64,000 nucleotides of DNA from Mesobacillus jeotgali (lineage in GTDB: Bacteria; Bacillota; Bacilli; Bacillales; Cytobacillaceae): the NCBI RefSeq assembly GCF_014856545.2, contig NZ_CP109811.1:800001-864000 (forward strand), read 5' to 3'. A program made the position numbers and the translations under genes. Shown one piece after another: positions 14,422-60,917 of this stretch. The number at the start of each line of letters is the position of its first letter. Position 1 is the stretch's first letter. The notes beneath the pieces were generated by a model. It worked only from the letters and a program-made list of their open reading frames with translations. It was not told the origin of the DNA and ran no database searches.

Positions 14422-15738
14422 ATGAAGAATCGAATCTTTTTAGTAGTGATGTGCTTTCAGCTAGCTGCATTGTCCTTTTTCCCTTTTATTGAAAAAGCGA
14501 ATGGAGCCGGAAATGATGCAGAGGGATTCATTATCCAGGCTGACCGGGTGGTTGGTGAAAATATGAAAGCAATGGTTGTCTCCGGCGAGACATCTGGCTC
14601 GAATGCCAAGCCAATGCTGCGGATCACCTACGACTCAGCTATGATTTACGGCATGAGGCTGACAAAACAGTTCCAGACTTCAGGAGGTACGGTTAGCCTC
14701 ACGATGAAAGCAAACGGCCCTGTTCATATAAAAGGGATGCAGGTCGATGCCAGCGCGATTTCATTCCAGGGGGCATGCGTGCACGCGGCAAAAATCATTC
14801 CGAATGCTGCTCTCGAAGGCGTGACGATGGTCGCCCATTCAATGAATGCAGCCAACAGCAGCCTTGACCAGTTAAAGCTTCAGACAGTAAATGGTGATGG
14901 AGGAGTACAGAAGCCAGGCACCTTGGAAATTTTACAGGAGCTTGGGGCAATGCCATTTGGACAGATGAAAAAGGAAATTGAGAAAATCACCAGCGGCCAG
15001 CTGCCGCTAACTTGCGAAGGCGCTGCTGAGGAGGAAGTGGAAGAAATAGTAGGGGGAGTGATCCAGCCAGTCGATGACTTGCTGGATGAAGTAACAGACC
15101 CGCTCGATGGAACAATCGGGAAAGTAACGGACCCGCTTGATGGAATAATTGGCAAAGTGACGGATCCGCTGGATGACACAATCGGAAAAGTGACCGATCC
15201 CCTCAAGGATACAATCGGAAAGGTGACAGACCCTCTCAAGGATACAGTCGAAAAAGTGACGGATCCACTGAAAGACACAGTTGGCAAGGTCACCGGCCCT
15301 GTCAAAGATACGGTCGATAAGGTGGTTACTCCTGTTGAAGAGACAGTCGGAAAAGTGACACAACCTGTAAAAGAGGTCGTCAAGGAAACGACGGACAGTG
15401 CAAAAACAGTCACAGAGCCTGTGGCTGAGCCGGTTAAGGAAATCGTGGATGAAACAGCCAAGACAGCGTGTGAAAAGCTGGAGGCGGTAAATGGCGAGAT
15501 GACCAAAGAGCTGGCGCTGGAATTGATCGACAAGGCACTGGCCGAAAACAAAATGCTAGATGAATTATGCCCGACAGACGCCACATTGACAGCTCAGCTT
15601 GAAAAATGGACAGAAGGGCTTCTCGATTCTCTCGGACTTCTGTCACTTCTCGGATTGAAGCCAAGCGAGGAAGAACAGCTGAAGAAGATGAGAGAGGTTA
15701 TTTTAAAAGAGCCTGATGGATCTATAATTGACTTCTAA
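14422..15738 (+). CDS. Exported protein with DUF6230-like domain and 11-residue repeats
   Basis: 438 residues. Signal peptide at 1-29 (hydrophobic core VVMCFQLAALSFFPFI, cleavage near ANGAG). A beta-rich domain at about 33-150 is homologous to the first gene of the operon. Then come at least eight tandem 11-residue repeats of type KVTDPLKDTIG (about residues 220-310), predicted as a long amphipathic helix or coiled coil, and a helical C-terminus with three cysteines. The repeats are also a 33-bp DNA repeat. No sorting motif or membrane anchor ends the protein. Probably a cell-surface stalk or linker protein; function unknown. Confidence 0.8.
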   Translation: MKNRIFLVVMCFQLAALSFFPFIEKANGAGNDAEGFIIQADRVVGENMKAMVVSGETSGSNAKPMLRITYDSAMIYGMRLTKQFQTSGGTVSLTMKANGPVHIKGMQVDASAISFQGACVHAAKIIPNAALEGVTMVAHSMNAANSSLDQLKLQTVNGDGGVQKPGTLEILQELGAMPFGQMKKEIEKITSGQLPLTCEGAAEEEVEEIVGGVIQPVDDLLDEVTDPLDGTIGKVTDPLDGIIGKVTDPLDDTIGKVTDPLKDTIGKVTDPLKDTVEKVTDPLKDTVGKVTGPVKDTVDKVVTPVEETVGKVTQPVKEVVKETTDSAKTVTEPVAEPVKEIVDETAKTACEKLEAVNGEMTKELALELIDKALAENKMLDELCPTDATLTAQLEKWTEGLLDSLGLLSLLGLKPSEEEQLKKMREVILKEPDGSIIDF

Positions 15739-23700: not shown

Positions 23701-23794
23701 CCAAAGTAGTTTTTCCTGTTGGAAGCTGAAATATAAAAAATCAATTGCATATGATTGTATAGAGATAAATTTTACTAAAGAAAGGGCGACTGAA

Positions 23795-24406
23795 ATGGAC
23801 GAAAAATTGTACGCTCAAGAGTTGGTTGAGTGCCCGACTGTTTTTTGCGCAAACCGGGATGACCAGGCTCCGCTTTTTACAGCAGATGCGTTGATAAATG
23901 GTGATATAAAAAAGATTAACCTTGAGGATTATCGCGGGAAGTGGGTTATTTTATTTTTCTACCCAAGCGATTTCACCTTTGTCTGACCGACAGAACTGGC
24001 GGCGGTCGCCGCTGTTTATCCTTATATTCAAGCTCTTGGTGCTGAATTGCTGGCCATCAGCACAGACAGTGTATATTCGCACAAGGTGTTTAAGGAAACT
24101 TCTCCATCATTGAAGAATGTTACGTATCCTATGGTAAGCGACAGGACACAGGTCATCAGCCGTGCTTACCGTGTTCTGGATGCAACGACCGGGGCCTGCT
24201 TCAGGACATCGGTTTTCATTGATCCAGAGGGCATTATCAGGGCAAAGCTCACATATCCAGGAAATGTCGGCCGAAACCTTCCTGAGCACGTAAGGATGCT
24301 GCAGGCTTTCGCGTATGCCAAACAAACAGGGAAGGGTGTACCGGCGAACTGGGTGCCCGGCCAGCAAGGAGTCAGTACAGACCCATCAAATATAGGGAAT
24401 ATTTAA
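23795..24406 (+). CDS. Peroxiredoxin (AhpC/Prx1-like) with in-frame UGA at the catalytic Cys: candidate selenoprotein
   Basis: One frame of 203 residues if TGA 23984-23986 (codon 64) is read through. The motif PSDFTFV-U-PTELAAV matches the peroxiredoxin site P-x3-T-x2-C, with UGA exactly where the peroxidatic Cys stands. The frame continues cleanly for 139 codons ([32 protein letters not shown]), including the conserved active-site Arg. A hairpin with a GGUC loop lies 17 bases after the UGA. The usual C-terminal resolving Cys is absent (GKGVPANW, where the family has VCPAxW); other Cys lie at 13, 18 and in TGACF. It reduces peroxides. A recent nonsense mutation is the alternative. Confidence 0.75.
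23984..24017 (+). promoter_or_regulatory. Candidate bacterial SECIS element
   Basis: UGA at 23984-23986, then 11 bases, then the stem GGCGGC (23998-24003), loop GGTC (24004-24007), stem GCCGCT (24008-24013), extended by a U-G pair and A-U pairs below a mismatch. The loop sequence and the UGA-to-loop distance resemble the E. coli fdhF SECIS, whose apical loop is also GGUC. The hairpin lies inside the coding frame, as bacterial SECIS elements do. Confidence 0.65.
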
Positions 24407-24412
24407 GGCTTG

Positions 24413-24440
24413 CAGGTCCGGTTAAAGGGACCTGTTTTTT
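24413..24440 (+). terminator. Terminator of the peroxiredoxin gene
   Basis: CAGGTCC/GGACCTG stem with a TTTTTT tail. Confidence 0.85.
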
Positions 24441-40275: not shown

Positions 40276-40511
40276 GTTTATGGGGGTAAATAAATAAAAA
40301 GAGTTCAACAATTAAAGATATTATTTGACAAAATATAGTGTTTAAATGGTTGTAATTTTCAGAAAAATACTATTTCTAGCTGTGATTTTGTAATTGTTTG
40401 GAAGAAAAAAGAAAAAAACCTTCTAATGCTGGCGACAAATAGTTACATGTTAAATATATAGAACAAGGTACAATGACATTGGGAGTTAAGAAGTGAGTAA
40501 AAAGATACAGA
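40276..40511. other. Intergenic region before the riboswitch
   Basis: No gene seen. It is A/T-rich, with a TACAAT hexamer at about 40471 that may be the -10 of the sinI transcript. Confidence 0.5.
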
Positions 40512-40592
40512 AAAAGGCAAACTTGTTGAAAAACTAGGACGCAAAGTCACGGATCTAAGGTGCAATCGACTATGATGGCCGGACTGCCTGGA
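40512..40592 (+). promoter_or_regulatory. Cyclic di-GMP-I (GEMM) riboswitch upstream of sinI
   Basis: Read in order: GGCAAAC, a stem capped by GAAA, GGACGCAAAGTCAC, GGATCTAAGG, a variable hairpin, then ATGGCCGGACTGCC. These are the conserved blocks of the GEMM class I aptamer, including GACGCAAAG and CTAAGG. No terminator lies between the aptamer and the TTG start 28 bases on; a GGGGGGAAG ribosome site does. Control is therefore probably at translation initiation. Confidence 0.9.
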
Positions 40593-43347: not shown

Positions 43348-45325
43348 GTGCGTGCCCAGGTAAGCCGTTAATTGCTAGTTGGTGAAAGTCCAATCTGAGT
43401 AAGTGCCAAGACGCTCAGTAGCTGACAGGCAGCTGGTGGAGAAATCCTAAGGTTGAAGCCCTGTGACAAAGTAACTCCCTCCGCGGAGTGCGAGCGACCT
43501 GACAGGTTGTAACATAAAGTGAATCCTGCCGTCTCGTCAAAAGAACCTGCTCTCGGGCAGCCAAAGAGATGTCGAGCCTTGATGTAGTAGGCGAAGACCA
43601 TGGAAGGTGTGAGGAACTTGGAAACAACACCGAAGAATCTCTCGGGGTAAGGGGAGCGACATGTCAGGAAAGTAATTAACGGAACTGGGGATACCCTCCT
43701 CGTCACTTTCTTATGAAAGTAAAGCTGAAACCTATAAGTGAAAACGAAGTGGTGAAGGGATGAGAGGGAGTCGGAAGGGGTCATAGTACCAATGATGACA
43801 ATGACAACACAACATTGTCTAGGGAAGGACGGCGAATGCCAGTACCCTACTTCGTTCATATGTCCAAAGGAGGTAAGAGTCAGTGAATGCCAGGAAAATG
43901 GCTAACTACACCAATAATGATAAAGCTCAAGAACTCTGGAAGACGTTATATCTTTGTGCTAAGGAAAGTTCATCTCGAAGATTTCACGCACTATATGACA
44001 AGATTCATCGGCCTGACATCTTATGGGAAGCATGGCAGAATGTGAAACGGAAGAAAGGAAGTGGCGGTGTCGACGGACAGACGATTGAACAAATCGTCCT
44101 GGATTACGGGGAAAGGAAGTTCATGAATGAAATCTTCCTTGAACTGAAAGAGAAACGTTACCATCCTAGTCCGGTGCTCCGTACCTTTATTCCGAAGGAA
44201 GACGGAAAACAGCGTCCACTGGGAATTCCAACAATTAAAGACCGGGTAGTCCAGACGGCAACGAAAATGGTCATTGAACCGATATTCGAGGCTGATTTCC
44301 ATGACTGCTCATTTGGATTCCGTCCGAAAAAGAATGCCCATCAAGCCATGGCGAAAATCAGGAAAGCGAGTAAGAACTGCTTTTGGGTAGTCGACGTCGA
44401 TATCCAAGGGTACTTCGACAATATCAATCAAGGAAAACTGATGAAACTTCTGGAACAACGCATAAGTGACAGAAGGGTATTGAAACTGATTCGCAAATGG
44501 CTGGAAGCCGGCATCATGGAGGAAGGAAACATCAGGAATCCGACAACAGGAACCCCTCAAGGTGGTGTCATCTCTCCATTACTCGCCAATATCTATTTAA
44601 ATGTCATGGATAAATTATGGCAGGAGAGATTTGGAGAACTCGGAGAATTGATCCGGTATGCGGACGACTTCGTCATCATGTGTAAAACGAAGAAACAAGC
44701 AATGGAAACCATCCGAGTCATCCAGGCGATCATGGGGAAGCTGGATTTGACCATCAATCGGGATAAATCCAGACTGGTCAATATTTGGAATGACACAGAC
44801 GGATTCGATTTCCTTGGCTTCCATAATCGAAAATTCCCTATCCGCCGTAAAGGCGGCAACACGTTCTATGTCATGAACCACATACCGAAAAGGAATGCCC
44901 TGAAGAAAATGCGAGCGAAAATAAAAGCATACACGGAACCGAGAAACAAACTTTACTTGGATATCTGTGACTTGGTCAAAGGCTTGAACAGGAAGTTACA
45001 AGGGTTCAAGAACTATTACCAACTTTCACCGCAAGGAAAGAAATGGCTGAATCGCATTGACTGGTATGTTCTTGAGAGATTGGTCTTGTTTTACAACAAA
45101 AAAGAAGAACAATCCCAAGAAGCACGGGAACCTGAAAGATGTAAGGAAAGAAGTTGAACATATATTAGTGAAATTGGCGAGTTAGACCAGTACGTACTGC
45201 CAAAGAAAGAAGAACGTCGGAAAGCCGTATGAGGGAAAACCTCACGTACGGTTTGATGAGGAGGAGCTGAAAGTAAAAGAAGAAGCCAGGAAGGCTCCCT
45301 CTTTGAAATCAGTTTCTTACTCTAC
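43348..45325 (+). mobile_element. Group II intron, bacterial class C
   Basis: The 5' end GTGCGTGCCC fits the GUGYG rule. About 530 bases of structured RNA precede the encoded protein. Domain V is at 45222-45254 (AAGCCGTATGAGGG-AAAA-CCTCACGTACGGTT) with the catalytic AGC. A domain VI-like hairpin (GAGGAGGAGC/GCTCCCTC) follows. The 3' end is placed near TTACTCTAC (about 45325) and is approximate. Class C introns insert just behind terminator hairpins, as here after yfkM. About 1.98 kb; it looks intact. Confidence 0.88.
43883..45157 (+). CDS. ltrA: Group II intron-encoded reverse transcriptase/maturase
   Basis: 424 residues. The RT domain has KRKKGSGGVDGQTIEQIV, FGFRPKKNAHQAM, VVDVDIQGYFDNI, GTPQGGVISPLLANIYLN and the catalytic RYADDFVI. 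The maturase (X) domain follows (KLQGFKNYYQLSPQGKKWL). There is no endonuclease domain, as expected for class C. AAAGGAGGTAAGAG precedes the ATG. It helps splicing and reverse-splices the intron RNA into DNA. Confidence 0.95.
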   Translation: MNARKMANYTNNDKAQELWKTLYLCAKESSSRRFHALYDKIHRPDILWEAWQNVKRKKGSGGVDGQTIEQIVLDYGERKFMNEIFLELKEKRYHPSPVLRTFIPKEDGKQRPLGIPTIKDRVVQTATKMVIEPIFEADFHDCSFGFRPKKNAHQAMAKIRKASKNCFWVVDVDIQGYFDNINQGKLMKLLEQRISDRRVLKLIRKWLEAGIMEEGNIRNPTTGTPQGGVISPLLANIYLNVMDKLWQERFGELGELIRYADDFVIMCKTKKQAMETIRVIQAIMGKLDLTINRDKSRLVNIWNDTDGFDFLGFHNRKFPIRRKGGNTFYVMNHIPKRNALKKMRAKIKAYTEPRNKLYLDICDLVKGLNRKLQGFKNYYQLSPQGKKWLNRIDWYVLERLVLFYNKKEEQSQEAREPERCKERS

Positions 45326-54964: not shown

Positions 54965-54988
54965 ACGCATAAAAAGAGGTGATTGGAA

Positions 54989-55876
54989 ATGGGTCTTTTT
55001 TCAAATGAGAAAAAGGTAGATTACGATAAAATCGTCGACAAGATGCTTCCAGATGCTAAGAAGGAAATGGATGAATCACAGTATGACACAGAGCTCGGCC
55101 TGAACATGGCGCGCGATGCTAGGAAGGTCATCAGCGGTAAACTGAAAATCGAAGACTTCCATAAAGTCTATTCTTCATCACTGACAAAGGAATTCGGCAA
55201 CTACTACGCTTCAGCTGATGGACCGGATATCAGGAAGGGTGACGGGCCGAAATGGGCGATGGTCATCGACCTGAAAAAATGCGTTGGCTGTGATACATGT
55301 ACTGTCAGCTGTAAGGCTGAGAACAGGACGCCGCCGGGGATTTCCTACAATGTCGTCATGGAATCACTTGAAGGAGAATTCCCGAACATCAAGGCAGTCA
55401 ACCTGCCAAGACCGTGCATGCAGTGTGACAAACCGGCTTGTGCCCAGGTTTGTCCGACAAGAGCGACTTATAAAATGGAAAACGGAATTGTCGCAATCGA
55501 CAATGACCGCTGCATCGGCTGCCGCTACTGCATCGTTGCCTGCCCTTATGGCGCGCGCTCCTTCGATTTCGGCGAAAGCTATGAACAGGAAATGCAAGGC
55601 GCGAATGATGTCACAAGCCCAGAATACGGCGTTGAACGCGGAACTCGCGAAAAAGGCAAGACGCCGATCGGCACAGTCCGCAAGTGCAGCTTCTGCTTCC
55701 ACCGCCTGGAAAGAGGCGAAGAGCCGGCATGCGTGGAAACGTGCATTGGCGATGCCCGCTTCTTCGGTGACATCAGTGACCCGAACAGTGTGGTATCGAA
55801 GCTTGCTGCAAGTCCAAGAGCATTCCGCCTGAAGGAAGAGCTTGGAACACATCCGAATGTCATTTATCTAAGATAG
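54989..55876 (+). CDS. srdB: Four-cluster iron-sulfur subunit of a molybdoenzyme (SrdB-like)
   Basis: 295 residues from the ATG at 54989 behind AAGAGGTG. Four Cys clusters: CVGCDTCTVSC, CMQCDKPACAQVCP, CIGCRYCIVACPYG and the pair CSFC...CVETC. This is the DmsB/PsrB/NrfC electron-transfer layout. An N-terminal extension of about 80 residues precedes the first cluster. It carries electrons from the NrfD subunit to the catalytic subunit. The B-C-A order equals that of srdBCA, but the substrate is inferred. Confidence 0.88.
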   Translation: MGLFSNEKKVDYDKIVDKMLPDAKKEMDESQYDTELGLNMARDARKVISGKLKIEDFHKVYSSSLTKEFGNYYASADGPDIRKGDGPKWAMVIDLKKCVGCDTCTVSCKAENRTPPGISYNVVMESLEGEFPNIKAVNLPRPCMQCDKPACAQVCPTRATYKMENGIVAIDNDRCIGCRYCIVACPYGARSFDFGESYEQEMQGANDVTSPEYGVERGTREKGKTPIGTVRKCSFCFHRLERGEEPACVETCIGDARFFGDISDPNSVVSKLAASPRAFRLKEELGTHPNVIYLR

Positions 55877-55888
55877 GAGGGACTGGCG

Positions 55889-57181
55889 ATGGCCAATCTT
55901 GCTGTTGATTTAAAAGAGAAAAGCACATCAAAATCAAAAGTCAATGTGACCGTATCGAAAGCTTTTAAAATATGGATTTCAGCCCTAACTGTTGCCTTTT
56001 TGATCGGTGGTTACTTTATCGTCGAGCGCTTCATCACCGGGCTGGCGGCTACGAATCTATCAAGCATCACCCCTTGGGGTGCATGGATTGCTTTTTACAT
56101 CTTCTTCGTTGGTTTGAGTGCGGGATCGTTCCTGCTATCAACCTTGATTTACGTTTTCGGGATGGAAGAGTACGAGAGAGTCGGTAAGGCGGCGCTTTTC
56201 ACCGCGATTGTCTGTATGATCGTCGCGCTGACCTTCGTGCTGATGGACCTTGGACGTCCGGAGCGGATGCTCAATGCGATCATCTATTGGAATGTCACTT
56301 CACCACTTGCCTGGGAGGTCCACTTTTATCTAGTCTATATCGGACTTCTGGCAGTTGAGCTTTACATCGCGATGAGGGAAGACCTCGTCCGCGCTGCAAA
56401 AACGAATTCATTAAAAGGCTTTGTCGCAAAATTGATTACGTTCAAAAACGCAACCATCAATGCAGCGACGAAAAAGCGTGATCATATGTGGATGAAAATC
56501 CTCGGTACCATCGGGATTCCGCTGGCCATCCTCGGGGTGCACGGCGGAACAGGAACCATCTTCGCTGTTGTAAAAGCAAGACCAGCATGGCATACAGCTC
56601 TTTTCCCGATCATCTTCGTCGTATCAGCAATGGTTTCGGGAACGGCTCTTCTTTTAGCCATGTATATCATCAAGAAAAAAGTGCAGAAACAGCCGATTGA
56701 CCAGGGCATGGTTGTATCACTGGCAAAACTGATGGTCGGCTTCCTGATCATCGACCTTGGTCTTCAATTCTATGAATATCTGATTGGCTGGTACGGCCTT
56801 GAGGCAGAACACCTTGATACGCTGGCAACGATGATGGCCAGTGAAAAAGCCTGGTCGTTCTGGATAGTCCAAATGTTCCTTGGAGCCGTCATCCCGATCA
56901 CAATTGTCTTCTGGAAAAAAACAAGCCAGAACGTCAATGCACTGCTTGCAGCCGCGGTACTGATAGTTATCGGAATCATCGGCGTCCGCTTCAACATTGT
57001 TCTGCCGCCGCTTGTGGTGCCAGTGTTCCACGAACTGCCATGGGGCAATTACGCGCCGACAATAAAGGAATGGATGGTCAGCGTCGGTGTTGTCGCGATG
57101 GGGCTATTAATCTACTCATTCGGTGAGCTGCTGCTGCCAATCGAAGAAACTTCTGACGAGGTGAGCCATAATGGAAAATAA
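55889..57181 (+). CDS. srdC: NrfD-family membrane quinol dehydrogenase subunit (SrdC-like)
   Basis: 430 residues with about ten membrane helices. GAWIAFYIFFVGLSAGSFLL and VLMDLGRPERMLNAIIYW are NrfD/PsrC signatures. It anchors the complex and oxidises menaquinol at the outer face. GGAGGGACTGGCG precedes the ATG; it overlaps the catalytic gene by 11 bp. Confidence 0.9.
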   Translation: MANLAVDLKEKSTSKSKVNVTVSKAFKIWISALTVAFLIGGYFIVERFITGLAATNLSSITPWGAWIAFYIFFVGLSAGSFLLSTLIYVFGMEEYERVGKAALFTAIVCMIVALTFVLMDLGRPERMLNAIIYWNVTSPLAWEVHFYLVYIGLLAVELYIAMREDLVRAAKTNSLKGFVAKLITFKNATINAATKKRDHMWMKILGTIGIPLAILGVHGGTGTIFAVVKARPAWHTALFPIIFVVSAMVSGTALLLAMYIIKKKVQKQPIDQGMVVSLAKLMVGFLIIDLGLQFYEYLIGWYGLEAEHLDTLATMMASEKAWSFWIVQMFLGAVIPITIVFWKKTSQNVNALLAAAVLIVIGIIGVRFNIVLPPLVVPVFHELPWGNYAPTIKEWMVSVGVVAMGLLIYSFGELLLPIEETSDEVSHNGK

Positions 57182-60100
57182 ACCAATGAAACGCCGTGGG
57201 TTTTTAAAAGCGCTCGGAACGCTCGGAGCGGTCGCATTCGTCGGACCGGCATTCGTCGGGCCAATCAAGCAGGTCATGGGCGACGTCTGGATCGATACAC
57301 CGCACGGAACCGGTACGGATTATCAAGATTACACGGCCGAAAACGTTATTTTCACGTCATGCCAGCAGTGTAATGCGACATGTACGATCAAAACCTATAT
57401 CACAGCCGGAGCGGCAGGAGGGGCATACTCCTCCATCGTCCGCAAGATTGCCGGAAACCAGTACAGCCCGATCAATATGGTGCAAATCGGCCATATCAAC
57501 TACGACACACCAGTATCGCAAGCGGTAAAAGGAACCGGGGATGTTGCCAAGATGGGTCGCGGACTACGCGGCGGACGCACCTGCTTGAAAGGGCAGGCTG
57601 GCATCCAGACAAACTATGATGCGTTCAGGATCCAAAAGCCATTGAAGCGTGTAGGCGAACGCGGCAGCGGCGTGTGGAAAACAGTCAGCTGGGAAGAGGC
57701 CTACAAGGAAATCCTCGAGGGCAGCAAGGACCTTCGCACTCCTGGGTTAAAAGAAATGTGGAAATACGCACCGGAAGCTGCCGTCATGGCGGATTGGGAT
57801 AAATTGAAGGCTGGCGAAATGACCAAAGCTGATTTTGATAAAAAATATAAGGATGTCCTAATTGATACGAATCATCCTGATTTTGGACCAAAGGCGAACC
57901 AGATCGCCGTCATGTCAGGACATAGACGTGAATTCATCGAGCGTCTTGCAGCCAACAGCCTTGGTACAGCGAACTATTATGATCACGGCGGCTACTGCGG
58001 CATCACGAGCGTAATGGGAAATGTCCGCTCACATGATGCTGAAAAGGCGAAGAAGCGGATGATTCCGGATTATGACAATGCGGAAATGGTCATCGTCTGG
58101 GGAACAAACCCGATGGTCGCAAACCGCGGGCCAACCACATTCGCGCCGCAAATCACAAATGCGATCGACCGCGGCATGAAAATGGTCGTCATCGATCCAC
58201 GCTATAGCAAGACAGCAGAGAAAGCCCATGTCTGGGTTCCGGTAAAACCGGGTGGCGACGGAGCACTAGCGATGGCAATGTCCCGCTGGATCATTGAAAA
58301 CAACCGATATGACGATATTTACCTTCGCAATCCGAACCAGGAAGCAGCGAATGAGGATGGCGAAACAACATGGAGTGATGCCTCTTTCCTTGTCAATGTC
58401 GGCGAAAAGAAGCGTCCGTTCGTCCGTGCCCAGGACCTTGGAATCGGTGGCGAGGAGTTTGTGGTCATCGAAAATGGCAAGCCAGTTTCCCATGCGAAGG
58501 CAAGAAACGGCGAGCTTGATGTGGATACGACCATAAATGGCATCAAAGTGAAATCTGTCTTCCGTATTTTTAAGGAAAGAGTCATGGAAAAATCGATGGA
58601 AGAATACGCAAAGCAGGCCGATGTGCCAGTGGACCAGATTGTCCAGATTGCCCGTGAATTCACATCCCATGGCAAAAAGGTCGGCATCCATTCTTACCGT
58701 GGACCGGCGATGCATACGAATGGCTACTATAGTGTACGCGCCATCAATATGCTGAACCACCTTGTCGGCAACCATGACTGGAAGGGCGGCGACACTGTCC
58801 TCGGCGCCAAGTACAAAGCAACCGAAGGACGATACGATCTTGTAACGGTGCCAAACGCTAACAAAGGCTGGGGCATCCCGGTCACAAGACATAAAGTACC
58901 TTATGAAAAAACATCATTATTCGAAAAAGATGGCTATCCGGCAAAACGGCCTTGGTATCCATTCGGCAATAAACTGATCCATGATGTCCTTCCAAGCTCG
59001 GCTGAAGGCTATCCATACAAAATCAGGGCATTGCTCATCAACAGGACATCACCGGTAATGGCTGGTCCAAGGTCAGAGATGCAGGCGAAATTCATCAGGG
59101 ATCCTAAAGTGGTTGAACTGGTAGTGGCATCAGATGTCATCATTGGCGAGACTTCCAAATATGCAGACTTCATTTTACCGGATCTTGCGTATCTTGAAAG
59201 CTGGAATGCGGAGGATATCTTCCCAATCCTGAAACATAAGTTCGCAGGCGTCATCCAGCCGGTAACGAGAGTTGTACCTGACGCACGGCCAACGGAGCAA
59301 GTTTATATCGATTTACTAAAAGGTTTGGGCCTTCCAGGTGTCGGCGACAAGGCTCTTGCTGATGGCTCGGCGATACACACACCGGAAGATTATTACTTAA
59401 AACGAATTGCGAATATCGCCTTTGACGGCAAGAAGCCGGTCAAGGACGCAAACGCTGAAGAGCTGGCGATTTTTGAAAAAGCAAGGCAGAAAGCGCTCGG
59501 CAAATATTTTGACATCCAGAAACTGAAAAGTGCTGTCAAACCGGAAGAGTGGAAGAAAGTCGTCTACGTATTGAACCGTGGCGGACGCTTTGAGGCAGCA
59601 GGAGATGAATATATCGGCAACAAGCTCAAGTATCAATGGGCAAAACAGGTTTATTTTTACGATGAAAAAGCAGCAGGCTTCAAGAGTGCCTACACAGGAA
59701 AATTCTTTGAAGGTCTGCCGGTAGCAGAGGAAATCAAGACTTATGACGGCGAAGTTTATAAGCCAAACAAACCGCTGCAGTTCATCAACTGGAAATCAAG
59801 AAATATGGCAACGCACCGTACTGAAGGAAATGCCTGGCTCCGTGAAGTGAAGCCGGAAAACTATCTGTGGATCAACCCGATCGACGCGAAGAAAAAAGGC
59901 ATCAAAACGGATGATGAAATCTACATTACATCCAATAACTCAAGAGTAAAAGGCCGCGCGCTCGTAACACCAGGAATCAAGCCAGGTGTCGTCGGAGCAA
60001 ACTTCAGCTTCGGCCATGATGCTTATGGCTCTAAGGCAGTCAAAGTAGACGGCAAAACAATCGAGCCAGCCGGAAAATACGGCCACACAGGCTATGAATT

Positions 60101-60269
60101 CAATAAACCGCTTCATGAAGAATCAGGCTACGCGAAACCGCGCGGACTGGGCTTCTCGGTCAATGCCTTATCAGACCGCGATGGCAGCTATTTCGAAGGC
60201 TATCTCGCAGACTTGCTGATCGGCGGACCGGCACAGCAGGACGTATTCGTGGACGTGGACAGAGTGTAA
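57171..60269 (+). CDS. srdA: Molybdopterin oxidoreductase catalytic subunit, selenate-reductase-like (SrdA)
   Basis: 1032 residues. A Tat signal peptide starts MKRRGFLKALGTLGAVAFVG. The FS0 cluster is CQQCNATC with a distant fourth Cys in GGRTCLKGQAG. The molybdenum-proximal segment YYDHGGYCGITSVMGN offers a Cys ligand. MGD-binding segments include VIVWGTNPMVANRGP, MVVIDPRYSKTAEKA and KIRALLINRTSPVM. DMSO-reductase family, larger than typical PhsA/PsrA. By gene order and size I favour a selenate or related oxyanion reductase; polysulfide, thiosulfate or arsenate reduction is possible. Overlaps srdC by 11 bp. Confidence 0.85.
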   Translation: MENKPMKRRGFLKALGTLGAVAFVGPAFVGPIKQVMGDVWIDTPHGTGTDYQDYTAENVIFTSCQQCNATCTIKTYITAGAAGGAYSSIVRKIAGNQYSPINMVQIGHINYDTPVSQAVKGTGDVAKMGRGLRGGRTCLKGQAGIQTNYDAFRIQKPLKRVGERGSGVWKTVSWEEAYKEILEGSKDLRTPGLKEMWKYAPEAAVMADWDKLKAGEMTKADFDKKYKDVLIDTNHPDFGPKANQIAVMSGHRREFIERLAANSLGTANYYDHGGYCGITSVMGNVRSHDAEKAKKRMIPDYDNAEMVIVWGTNPMVANRGPTTFAPQITNAIDRGMKMVVIDPRYSKTAEKAHVWVPVKPGGDGALAMAMSRWIIENNRYDDIYLRNPNQEAANEDGETTWSDASFLVNVGEKKRPFVRAQDLGIGGEEFVVIENGKPVSHAKARNGELDVDTTINGIKVKSVFRIFKERVMEKSMEEYAKQADVPVDQIVQIAREFTSHGKKVGIHSYRGPAMHTNGYYSVRAINMLNHLVGNHDWKGGDTVLGAKYKATEGRYDLVTVPNANKGWGIPVTRHKVPYEKTSLFEKDGYPAKRPWYPFGNKLIHDVLPSSAEGYPYKIRALLINRTSPVMAGPRSEMQAKFIRDPKVVELVVASDVIIGETSKYADFILPDLAYLESWNAEDIFPILKHKFAGVIQPVTRVVPDARPTEQVYIDLLKGLGLPGVGDKALADGSAIHTPEDYYLKRIANIAFDGKKPVKDANAEELAIFEKARQKALGKYFDIQKLKSAVKPEEWKKVVYVLNRGGRFEAAGDEYIGNKLKYQWAKQVYFYDEKAAGFKSAYTGKFFEGLPVAEEIKTYDGEVYKPNKPLQFINWKSRNMATHRTEGNAWLREVKPENYLWINPIDAKKKGIKTDDEIYITSNNSRVKGRALVTPGIKPGVVGANFSFGHDAYGSKAVKVDGKTIEPAGKYGHTGYEFNKPLHEESGYAKPRGLGFSVNALSDRDGSYFEGYLADLLIGGPAQQDVFVDVDRV

Positions 60270-60335
60270 AACAACATCGGGGGATGCCTGGTGGGCACCC
60301 CTGAAAACTTGTTGAAAATGAAGGTGGAGACAATG

Positions 60336-60917
60336 ATGGAAGAACGATATGGAAAGCTGGCGATTGCGAATATCATGACAAGCATCTGGCTGGGGGACTG
60401 GGACACCTATGAAGCATTCATGAATGATGTCCCTGAAGGAATGCGTAAGGAGCTCTCGTTTCATTCCTTATACAATCGGGATGAAGTGCAGCTCTGGTAT
60501 GACAATCACTTCTTCATACCGGGAGATCATTTTGTCTCCCCTTACTTTTCTTCTTATACGAAAAATAATGAAGATGAAGAAGCCCGCCGGCATGAATTGC
60601 TTTGCCTGATCGGCCTTTATGAAAAAACAGCCTTTTACTTCCCGCTCCAGCAAGATCGGCTGCCAGACCACTTCGGCAGCATGACAGCGTTCATGAGCTC
60701 GATTTTACAGGGAGAGATCAAAGCGGAACAAGAGGGCGGCCGCGAACACCTCCAGCAGCTCGAAGAAATAGAGGCAGAGATGCTTACAAGGTTCATCAGG
60801 CCGGTCCTGAAACCATTGCTCGAAAATGCAGAGTTGAAAATCAAACATCCATTCTTTATAGAGTTCCTCGGCTTTTACGCGGAAATGATGAGTGAAGAGT
60901 GGAAAGTGGCAGCGTAA
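60336..60917 (+). CDS. TorD/DmsD-type molybdoenzyme chaperone
   Basis: About 193 residues, all helical. NIMTSIWLGDWDTYEAFMND, VSPYFSSYTKNNEDEEARRHEL and FIEFLGFYAEMMSEEW fit the TorD family (the usual DHxxxELxFM motif is replaced by HELLCLIGLY). The start is uncertain: ATG 60336 or 60333 (GGTGGAG close by), or GTG 60291 behind CGGGGG. It would bind the Tat signal and guide cofactor insertion of the catalytic subunit encoded just upstream. Confidence 0.78.
   Translation: MEERYGKLAIANIMTSIWLGDWDTYEAFMNDVPEGMRKELSFHSLYNRDEVQLWYDNHFFIPGDHFVSPYFSSYTKNNEDEEARRHELLCLIGLYEKTAFYFPLQQDRLPDHFGSMTAFMSSILQGEIKAEQEGGREHLQQLEEIEAEMLTRFIRPVLKPLLENAELKIKHPFFIEFLGFYAEMMSEEWKVAA

Follow-up and report, generated by a model that had tools for sequence, protein, structure and literature searches.

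The window, a stretch of 64,000 nucleotides from the genome of Mesobacillus jeotgali, contains on its forward strand a gene (23795..24406) that almost certainly encodes a selenoprotein, as judged from comparative sequence analysis. The predicted product is a peroxiredoxin of 203 residues with selenocysteine (Sec, U64) in place of the peroxidatic cysteine. The best explanation as a whole, a Sec peroxiredoxin with UGA decoding via SelB and a hairpin and most likely with reduction by an external thiol, is given a probability of about 0.96. The protein is assigned to a second family of Sec peroxiredoxins besides PrxU, present in Bacillales and other Bacillota.

Peroxiredoxin gene and in-frame UGA codon

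The reading frame extends from ATG to TAA and comprises 63 codons, a single internal TGA (23984..23986) and 139 further codons. The read-through product is an AhpC/TSA peroxiredoxin (Pfam PF00578, 125.6 bits, cut-off 26) with the threonine, glutamate and arginine of the active site, and ortholog alignments cover the same frame. An alignment with solved thioredoxin peroxidases places the TGA at the peroxidatic cysteine of the motif DFTFVCPTE. A preliminary description of the DNA had placed a single TGA at this cysteine codon, followed by 139 open codons; frame reading and alignment confirmed it. A ribosome-binding-site-like sequence, GAAAGGG (23780..23786, forward strand), was read upstream of the start codon, and GGAGG-like motifs are located close to the same place in many orthologs. 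Pattern matching yielded a candidate intrinsic terminator directly past the stop codon (24412..24435, forward strand), an eight-pair stem followed by a T run. With the ribosome-binding-site-like sequence and the terminator-like hairpin, the peroxiredoxin gene looks monocistronic.

The gene neighbourhood was dropped as a clue to function. The fetched flanks contain cydA at nine of nine loci of the genus (L010-L018), whereas outside the genus it was found at just 2 of 27 loci (L142 and L147). At least one of five tested neighbour genes is present at 5 of the 27 loci outside the genus, most of which have only 3 kb of flank. Elsewhere on the forward strand of the window, a c-di-GMP-I-GGC riboswitch aptamer (40507-40592, 67.1 bits) and two Rfam matches to group II introns (43376-43517 and 45220-45325), perhaps one intron in two parts, have been located. 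A 438-residue protein (14422-15738) carries a run of VTDPLKDTIGK-type repeats.

Conservation of the UGA codon and co-occurrence with selA

In a sample of 101 related genomes, 53 contain listed matches with an identity of 55% or more, 54 in total; the next listed matches have 38-45% identity. The codon is TGA in all 54 orthologs (L075-L104 and L137-L160, each checked at the codon) and also at eleven loci from a species collection (L010-L020), nine of which (L010-L018) are taken as the same places as loci among the 54, given contigs of equal length. Within the genus, frame and TGA are kept in 21 of 21 genomes sampled. Distant loci (L021-L074, n = 54, at most 44% identity) have TGC or TGT at the site throughout. 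The earlier proposals that the TGA is no random hit and that homologues have cysteine at the site were both borne out by these alignments, which support the Sec reading of the codon. Of 53 matches in a second sample, 52 have TGA and one has cysteine (L213); 9 of the 52 TGA genomes were counted without a check at the codon itself. The alignment set comprised 84 TGA loci, excluding L213; as five had been fetched twice, 79 places and 71 distinct 42-nucleotide sequences were left. Substitution rates past the UGA were 0.335, 0.187 and 0.613 by codon position (33 sequences below 85% identity), indicating a protein under selection downstream of the UGA.

In both samples, the TGA gene is restricted to genomes with selA. 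All 53 TGA-gene genomes among the 101 relatives fall within the group of 76 in which selA scores above cut-off, and the remaining 25 contribute none. A tRNA-Sec match at E 1e-8 exists in 51 of the 53, the exceptions being G010, which is 66% complete, and G092, which has selA. In a sample of 397 genomes of the order, overlapping with that of the relatives, the gene occurs in 52 of 181 genomes with selA and in 0 of 216 without (Fisher 1.8e-20, a statistic that ignores relatedness). The 52 genomes span 20 genera; 21 genera were matched, one of them that of genome G628. Here, the protein P0014 from Alteribacter keqinensis (51% identical) is encoded with TGT and is the sole Cys ortholog found at its identity level. 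No selA match was obtained in G628, and its Cys ortholog lacks the hairpin. In this single case, which serves as an illustration and not as a statistic, a genome devoid of selA combines a Cys codon at the Sec site with a lost SECIS. In three genomes of the window's genus (G004, G010 and G016), the selA frame is interrupted or split while the TGA gene is kept, reflecting either decay of selA or faulty assembly. G020, G038, G053 and G057 each gave two tRNA-Sec matches above cut-off.

One stop in an otherwise open frame would formally fit a nonsense mutation or a sequencing error in a Cys peroxiredoxin as well, the gene being a pseudogene or an artefact. However, a sequencing error would not recur across so many genomes, the TGA is common to all 54 orthologs from independently sequenced genomes, purifying selection acts on both sides of it, and among 397 genomes the gene is confined to those with selA; this explanation has a negligible probability. 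The same holds for a decoding of UGA as tryptophan or a different standard amino acid, whether through suppression or through a changed genetic code. Tryptophan occupies the site in 17 of the best 120 database hits, which is attributed to gene callers that apply other genetic codes. Yet TGA serves as the terminal stop in several orthologs of the same set, including L084, L092 and L104, the site is a Cys codon in 54 distant loci and one changed ortholog, and the co-occurrence with selA would have no place. Less remote, though still improbable, is a UGA acting mainly as a selenium-dependent switch, at which low selenium would lead to a 63-residue stub or, after a downstream restart, to a C-terminal protein. 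According to the abstract of PMC4513850, Sec insertion in another system has to compete with termination. Databases list C-terminal products of 111-137 residues. These fragments are probably choices of gene callers, however: in the 136-residue forms examined, the first residue is L68, at the hairpin's edge, and the active site is missing. Sec insertion at U64 is the reading favored by this evidence.

SECIS hairpin

A hairpin past the UGA (23998..24013, forward strand), recognized by pairing, covariation and synonymous constraint, is the predicted SECIS element. The first and last base of its apical loop GGUC (24004..24007, forward strand) can pair, leaving GU as apex. The seven apical pairs are formed in 98.8% of the cells of alignment A1 (71 distinct sequences). 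Changes on both sides of a pair amount to 34 cells (shuffles: 8.3), with a covariation score of 0.260 (shuffles: 0.162); in either measure, 0 of 500 shuffles were as high. Three pairs have changes on both sides, a number reached by 20 of 500 shuffles, and the count of pair types is a weak indicator (253 of 500 shuffles as high). Partners slid by three columns still pair in 91.3% and 86.7%, since alanine codons repeat. In an 11-pair version with a bulged U (23993-24017, forward strand), pairing reaches 94.4%; pair 13-31 is not formed in 24 of the 71 sequences, so the lower stem is less sure.

The apex GU is invariant in 110 of 110 distinct sequences of the window's family and PrxU, which comprise the 71 sequences, 10 loci from other Bacillota and 29 distinct PrxU sequences. 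The pair closing the loop varies among these between G-C (70), A-U (34) and C-G (6). In the 10 sequences from other Bacillota, exceptions occur at three pairs of the lower stem (in 1, 3 and 2 sequences), and in the 29 PrxU hairpins at two pairs (in 1 and 2 sequences). Synonymous sites are constrained in addition: fourfold-degenerate codons have a mean entropy of 0.60 bits in the five hairpin codons compared with 1.79 in 29 elsewhere, and all five values lie under the minimum of the 29. A further two codons, situated between UGA and hairpin (1.36 and 1.59 bits), were excluded from both groups. Single-sequence folding energy was dropped as evidence, as the window hairpin is no more stable than its own shuffles (z -0.32, 61-nucleotide fold), and the case for the SECIS rests on comparison.

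The features of bacterial SECIS elements named in the legend of Fig. 2A of PMC13188914 are present. For a loop of 3-9 nucleotides and an upper stem of 4-16 bp, the hairpin has GGUC and 6-7 bp. At least one G is expected in the first two loop positions, and both are G. A pair flanking the G-[G/U] core, found in most elements, is possible in 110 of 110 sequences. The distance of 16-37 nucleotides from UGA to apical loop is represented by 17 nucleotides (23987-24003). The minimum free energy, expected at -7.5 kcal/mol or lower, is -13.0 for the 42 nucleotides past the UGA, although the 61-nucleotide fold is no better than its shuffles. A search for the UGA-SECIS pattern in viral contigs gave 0 matches.

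Selenocysteine machinery of the host genome

The host genome, one contig of 4.84 Mb, harbors the four genes of a Sec-decoding organism. Among named matches, the nearest come from Bacillus sp. ISL-37 (97%) and Mesobacillus boroniphilus (96%), in keeping with a Mesobacillus host. The tRNA-Sec gene selC (C1:1994299-1994391, 67.1 bits, cut-off 47) has the anticodon UCA; selA is located at 2597243-2598625, selD, with an in-frame TGA of its own, at 2599159-2600085, and selB at 2820741-2822603. The candidate selenoprotein of the preliminary description had been made dependent on these genes and on an intact frame in close relatives; both tests turned out in its favor. The SECIS hairpin, the lack of a resolving cysteine, the difference from PrxU and the Cys ortholog go beyond that description. 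Three formate dehydrogenase alpha genes or parts of genes contain one in-frame TGA each. In all three, GGUC occurs in the predicted loop 18 nucleotides past the UGA, compared with 17 in the peroxiredoxin gene. The hairpin past the TGA of selD has a different loop without GGUC.

A selenate-reductase-like operon had also been cited in support of selenium metabolism. This argument is weak, because dissimilatory chemistry says little on Sec insertion. The selenate- or tetrathionate-reductase-like operon (54983-60917, forward strand) encodes an iron-sulfur protein, an NrfD-like membrane subunit, a 1032-residue molybdopterin oxidoreductase and a 208-residue protein. Its best NCBIfam match is TtrA with 490 bits (cut-off 1750). 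Among the matches listed for the four proteins (for one protein, 25 of 49), none reaches its cut-off, and the 208-residue protein has no NCBIfam match.

Relation to PrxU and other peroxiredoxins

Sec at the peroxidatic position of some bacterial peroxiredoxins, mentioned in the preliminary description, is established. PrxU is the Sec peroxiredoxin of Eubacterium acidaminophilum (Sohling 2001, as referenced in passages of PMC13188914 and PMC9312934), and survey passages (PMC13188914, PMC1794560, PMC5029168) define a family 'Peroxiredoxin (Prx), TxxU', with 91 proteins from 78 organisms in PMC5029168. The window protein shares with this family the TxxU at the active site. In contrast, the survey passages name no peroxiredoxin from Bacillales; Table 2 of PMC1794560 counts three selenoproteins of three families for Bacillales, whose names are not given there. 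The gene may thus have been sighted before. A literature search for a named Sec peroxiredoxin from Bacillales found none among the listings and passages covered.

Typical 2-Cys peroxiredoxins (Prx1/AhpC, e.g. 5jly and 3zvj) align with the window protein over most of the length (146 bits), and the active-site threonine, glutamate and arginine as well as the C-terminal PxNW are retained. Unlike these, it has Sec instead of the peroxidatic cysteine, and V, T, I, L or A takes the place of the resolving cysteine in its family. With PrxU, it has in common the affiliation to AhpC/TSA, Sec as the peroxidatic residue of DFTFVU, the lack of the resolving cysteine (no cysteine at that place in 30 of 30 PrxU loci) and a hairpin at equal distance with a GU apex. 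The motif is UPTE in the window protein compared with UATE in 25 of the 30 PrxU loci.

PrxU (NF040737) is the best NCBIfam match of the window protein, which scores 170.6 bits at a cut-off of 270 and so falls outside the curated family. Above this cut-off, PrxU is present in 48 of 398 Bacillota genomes. At least 20 rows with TGA were listed below it outside the window's genus, of which 19 were fetched (G386 was left out). They yielded 10 TGA genes of the window's type from outside the order (43-55% identity), four Prx6-like TGA genes and five with cysteine. The Prx6-like genes (L263, L264, L265 and L267), from other Bacillota, represent a third type of TGA peroxiredoxin with the motif UTTEF, a C-terminal extension and a different hairpin loop. 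In a tree of 82 rows, the window's family lies on one side of a branch with an SH-aLRT of 92, below the 95 mark; its 43 rows consist of 28 of the Bacillales type, 10 from other Bacillota, four database proteins with tryptophan and the Alteribacter protein. PrxU is located on another branch (SH-aLRT 99).

The window protein might still be a drifted member of PrxU, as its best NCBIfam match, the position of the hairpin and the GU apex would suggest. A common clade of both groups is not rejected and scores above the free tree (p-AU 0.84; 0.66 in an earlier test). A score far under the curated cut-off and the separate branches (92, below the 95 mark, and 99) argue against drift. So does the genome G048, from the window's own family, which harbors a separate TGA gene of apparent PrxU type (L161, C16:682465-683022). 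The product of L161 shares 38% identity with the window protein and as much as 80% with copies from other Bacillota, which might reflect horizontal transfer. Membership in PrxU is therefore judged unlikely, and a separate second family remains the preferred assignment. A common origin of Sec in both families is compatible with the two p-AU values.

Active site and proposed mechanism

T61, E67 and R137 are identical in 58 of 58 rows, and P57 of the classical PxxxTxxC motif is proline in 49 of the 58. The column of the C-terminal resolving cysteine, which defines typical 2-Cys peroxiredoxins, contains V, T, I, L or A and cysteine in 0 of 59 rows, although the surrounding PxNW is kept in nearly all of them; the window protein has valine. 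The 59 rows include L010 and L017, which repeat a genome, and the PrxU-type L161. Cys18 is found in 43 and Cys13 in 34 of 58 rows, and C18 may help or resolve in some orthologs. No cysteine at all occurs in 12 of the 59 rows, given the start codons chosen by script. An internal selenenylsulfide is impossible there, so that reduction of the selenenic acid should fall to an external thiol.

In the proposed mechanism, SelB would carry Sec-tRNA-Sec with its UCA anticodon to the UGA, aided by the hairpin, which begins 11 nucleotides downstream of the UGA and would present its apical loop 17 nucleotides after the codon. The selenolate of Sec64, positioned by T61, E67 and R137, would attack the peroxide to form a selenenic acid. 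In a subsequent step, an external thiol would reduce the latter, supplied by a thioredoxin-like protein or by a low-molecular-weight thiol such as bacillithiol. Because the resolving cysteine is missing, such a thiol is the most likely reductant of the family. In Bacillales, bacillithiol is the predominant thiol of low molecular weight. Comparison establishes the UGA, the SECIS, the Sec machinery, the family and the lack of a resolving cysteine, from which Sec insertion itself, peroxidase activity and the reductant are inferred. A more specific and tentative proposal, for which the odds are rather against, regards the family as a '1-Sec' peroxidase of Bacillota that does without a thiol partner of its own, its reductant being a low-molecular-weight thiol, in Bacillales bacillithiol.

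Database annotation and significance

A search of 5.8 billion proteins, in which proteins under about 0.55 of the query length were left out, gave 2012 hits. The best 120 comprise 56 proteins without the active site, 30 of them with 136 residues, besides 17 with tryptophan and 47 with cysteine at the site. Only P0014 exceeds 50% identity among these 47 Cys proteins. Most hits are nameless; the names seen are of the types 'peroxiredoxin', 'alkyl hydroperoxide reductase' and 'redoxin domain-containing protein'. The family is often entered in databases as fragments, and in view of the 56 fragments and 17 tryptophan forms, a profile model for it would repair annotations.

Sec peroxiredoxins are a known kind of protein, within which the window's family is new, well supported and poorly recorded publicly, rather than a new principle. 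The gene is part of 52 of the 181 selA-bearing genomes of the order sample, and the Alteribacter ortholog is the one natural case found in which the genome lacks selA, Sec is replaced by Cys and the SECIS is gone. The absent resolving cysteine and the 12 rows free of cysteine make the reductant of a Sec peroxiredoxin directly testable. If the '1-Sec' proposal were true, bacteria would possess in this family an equivalent of glutathione peroxidase built on the AhpC fold.
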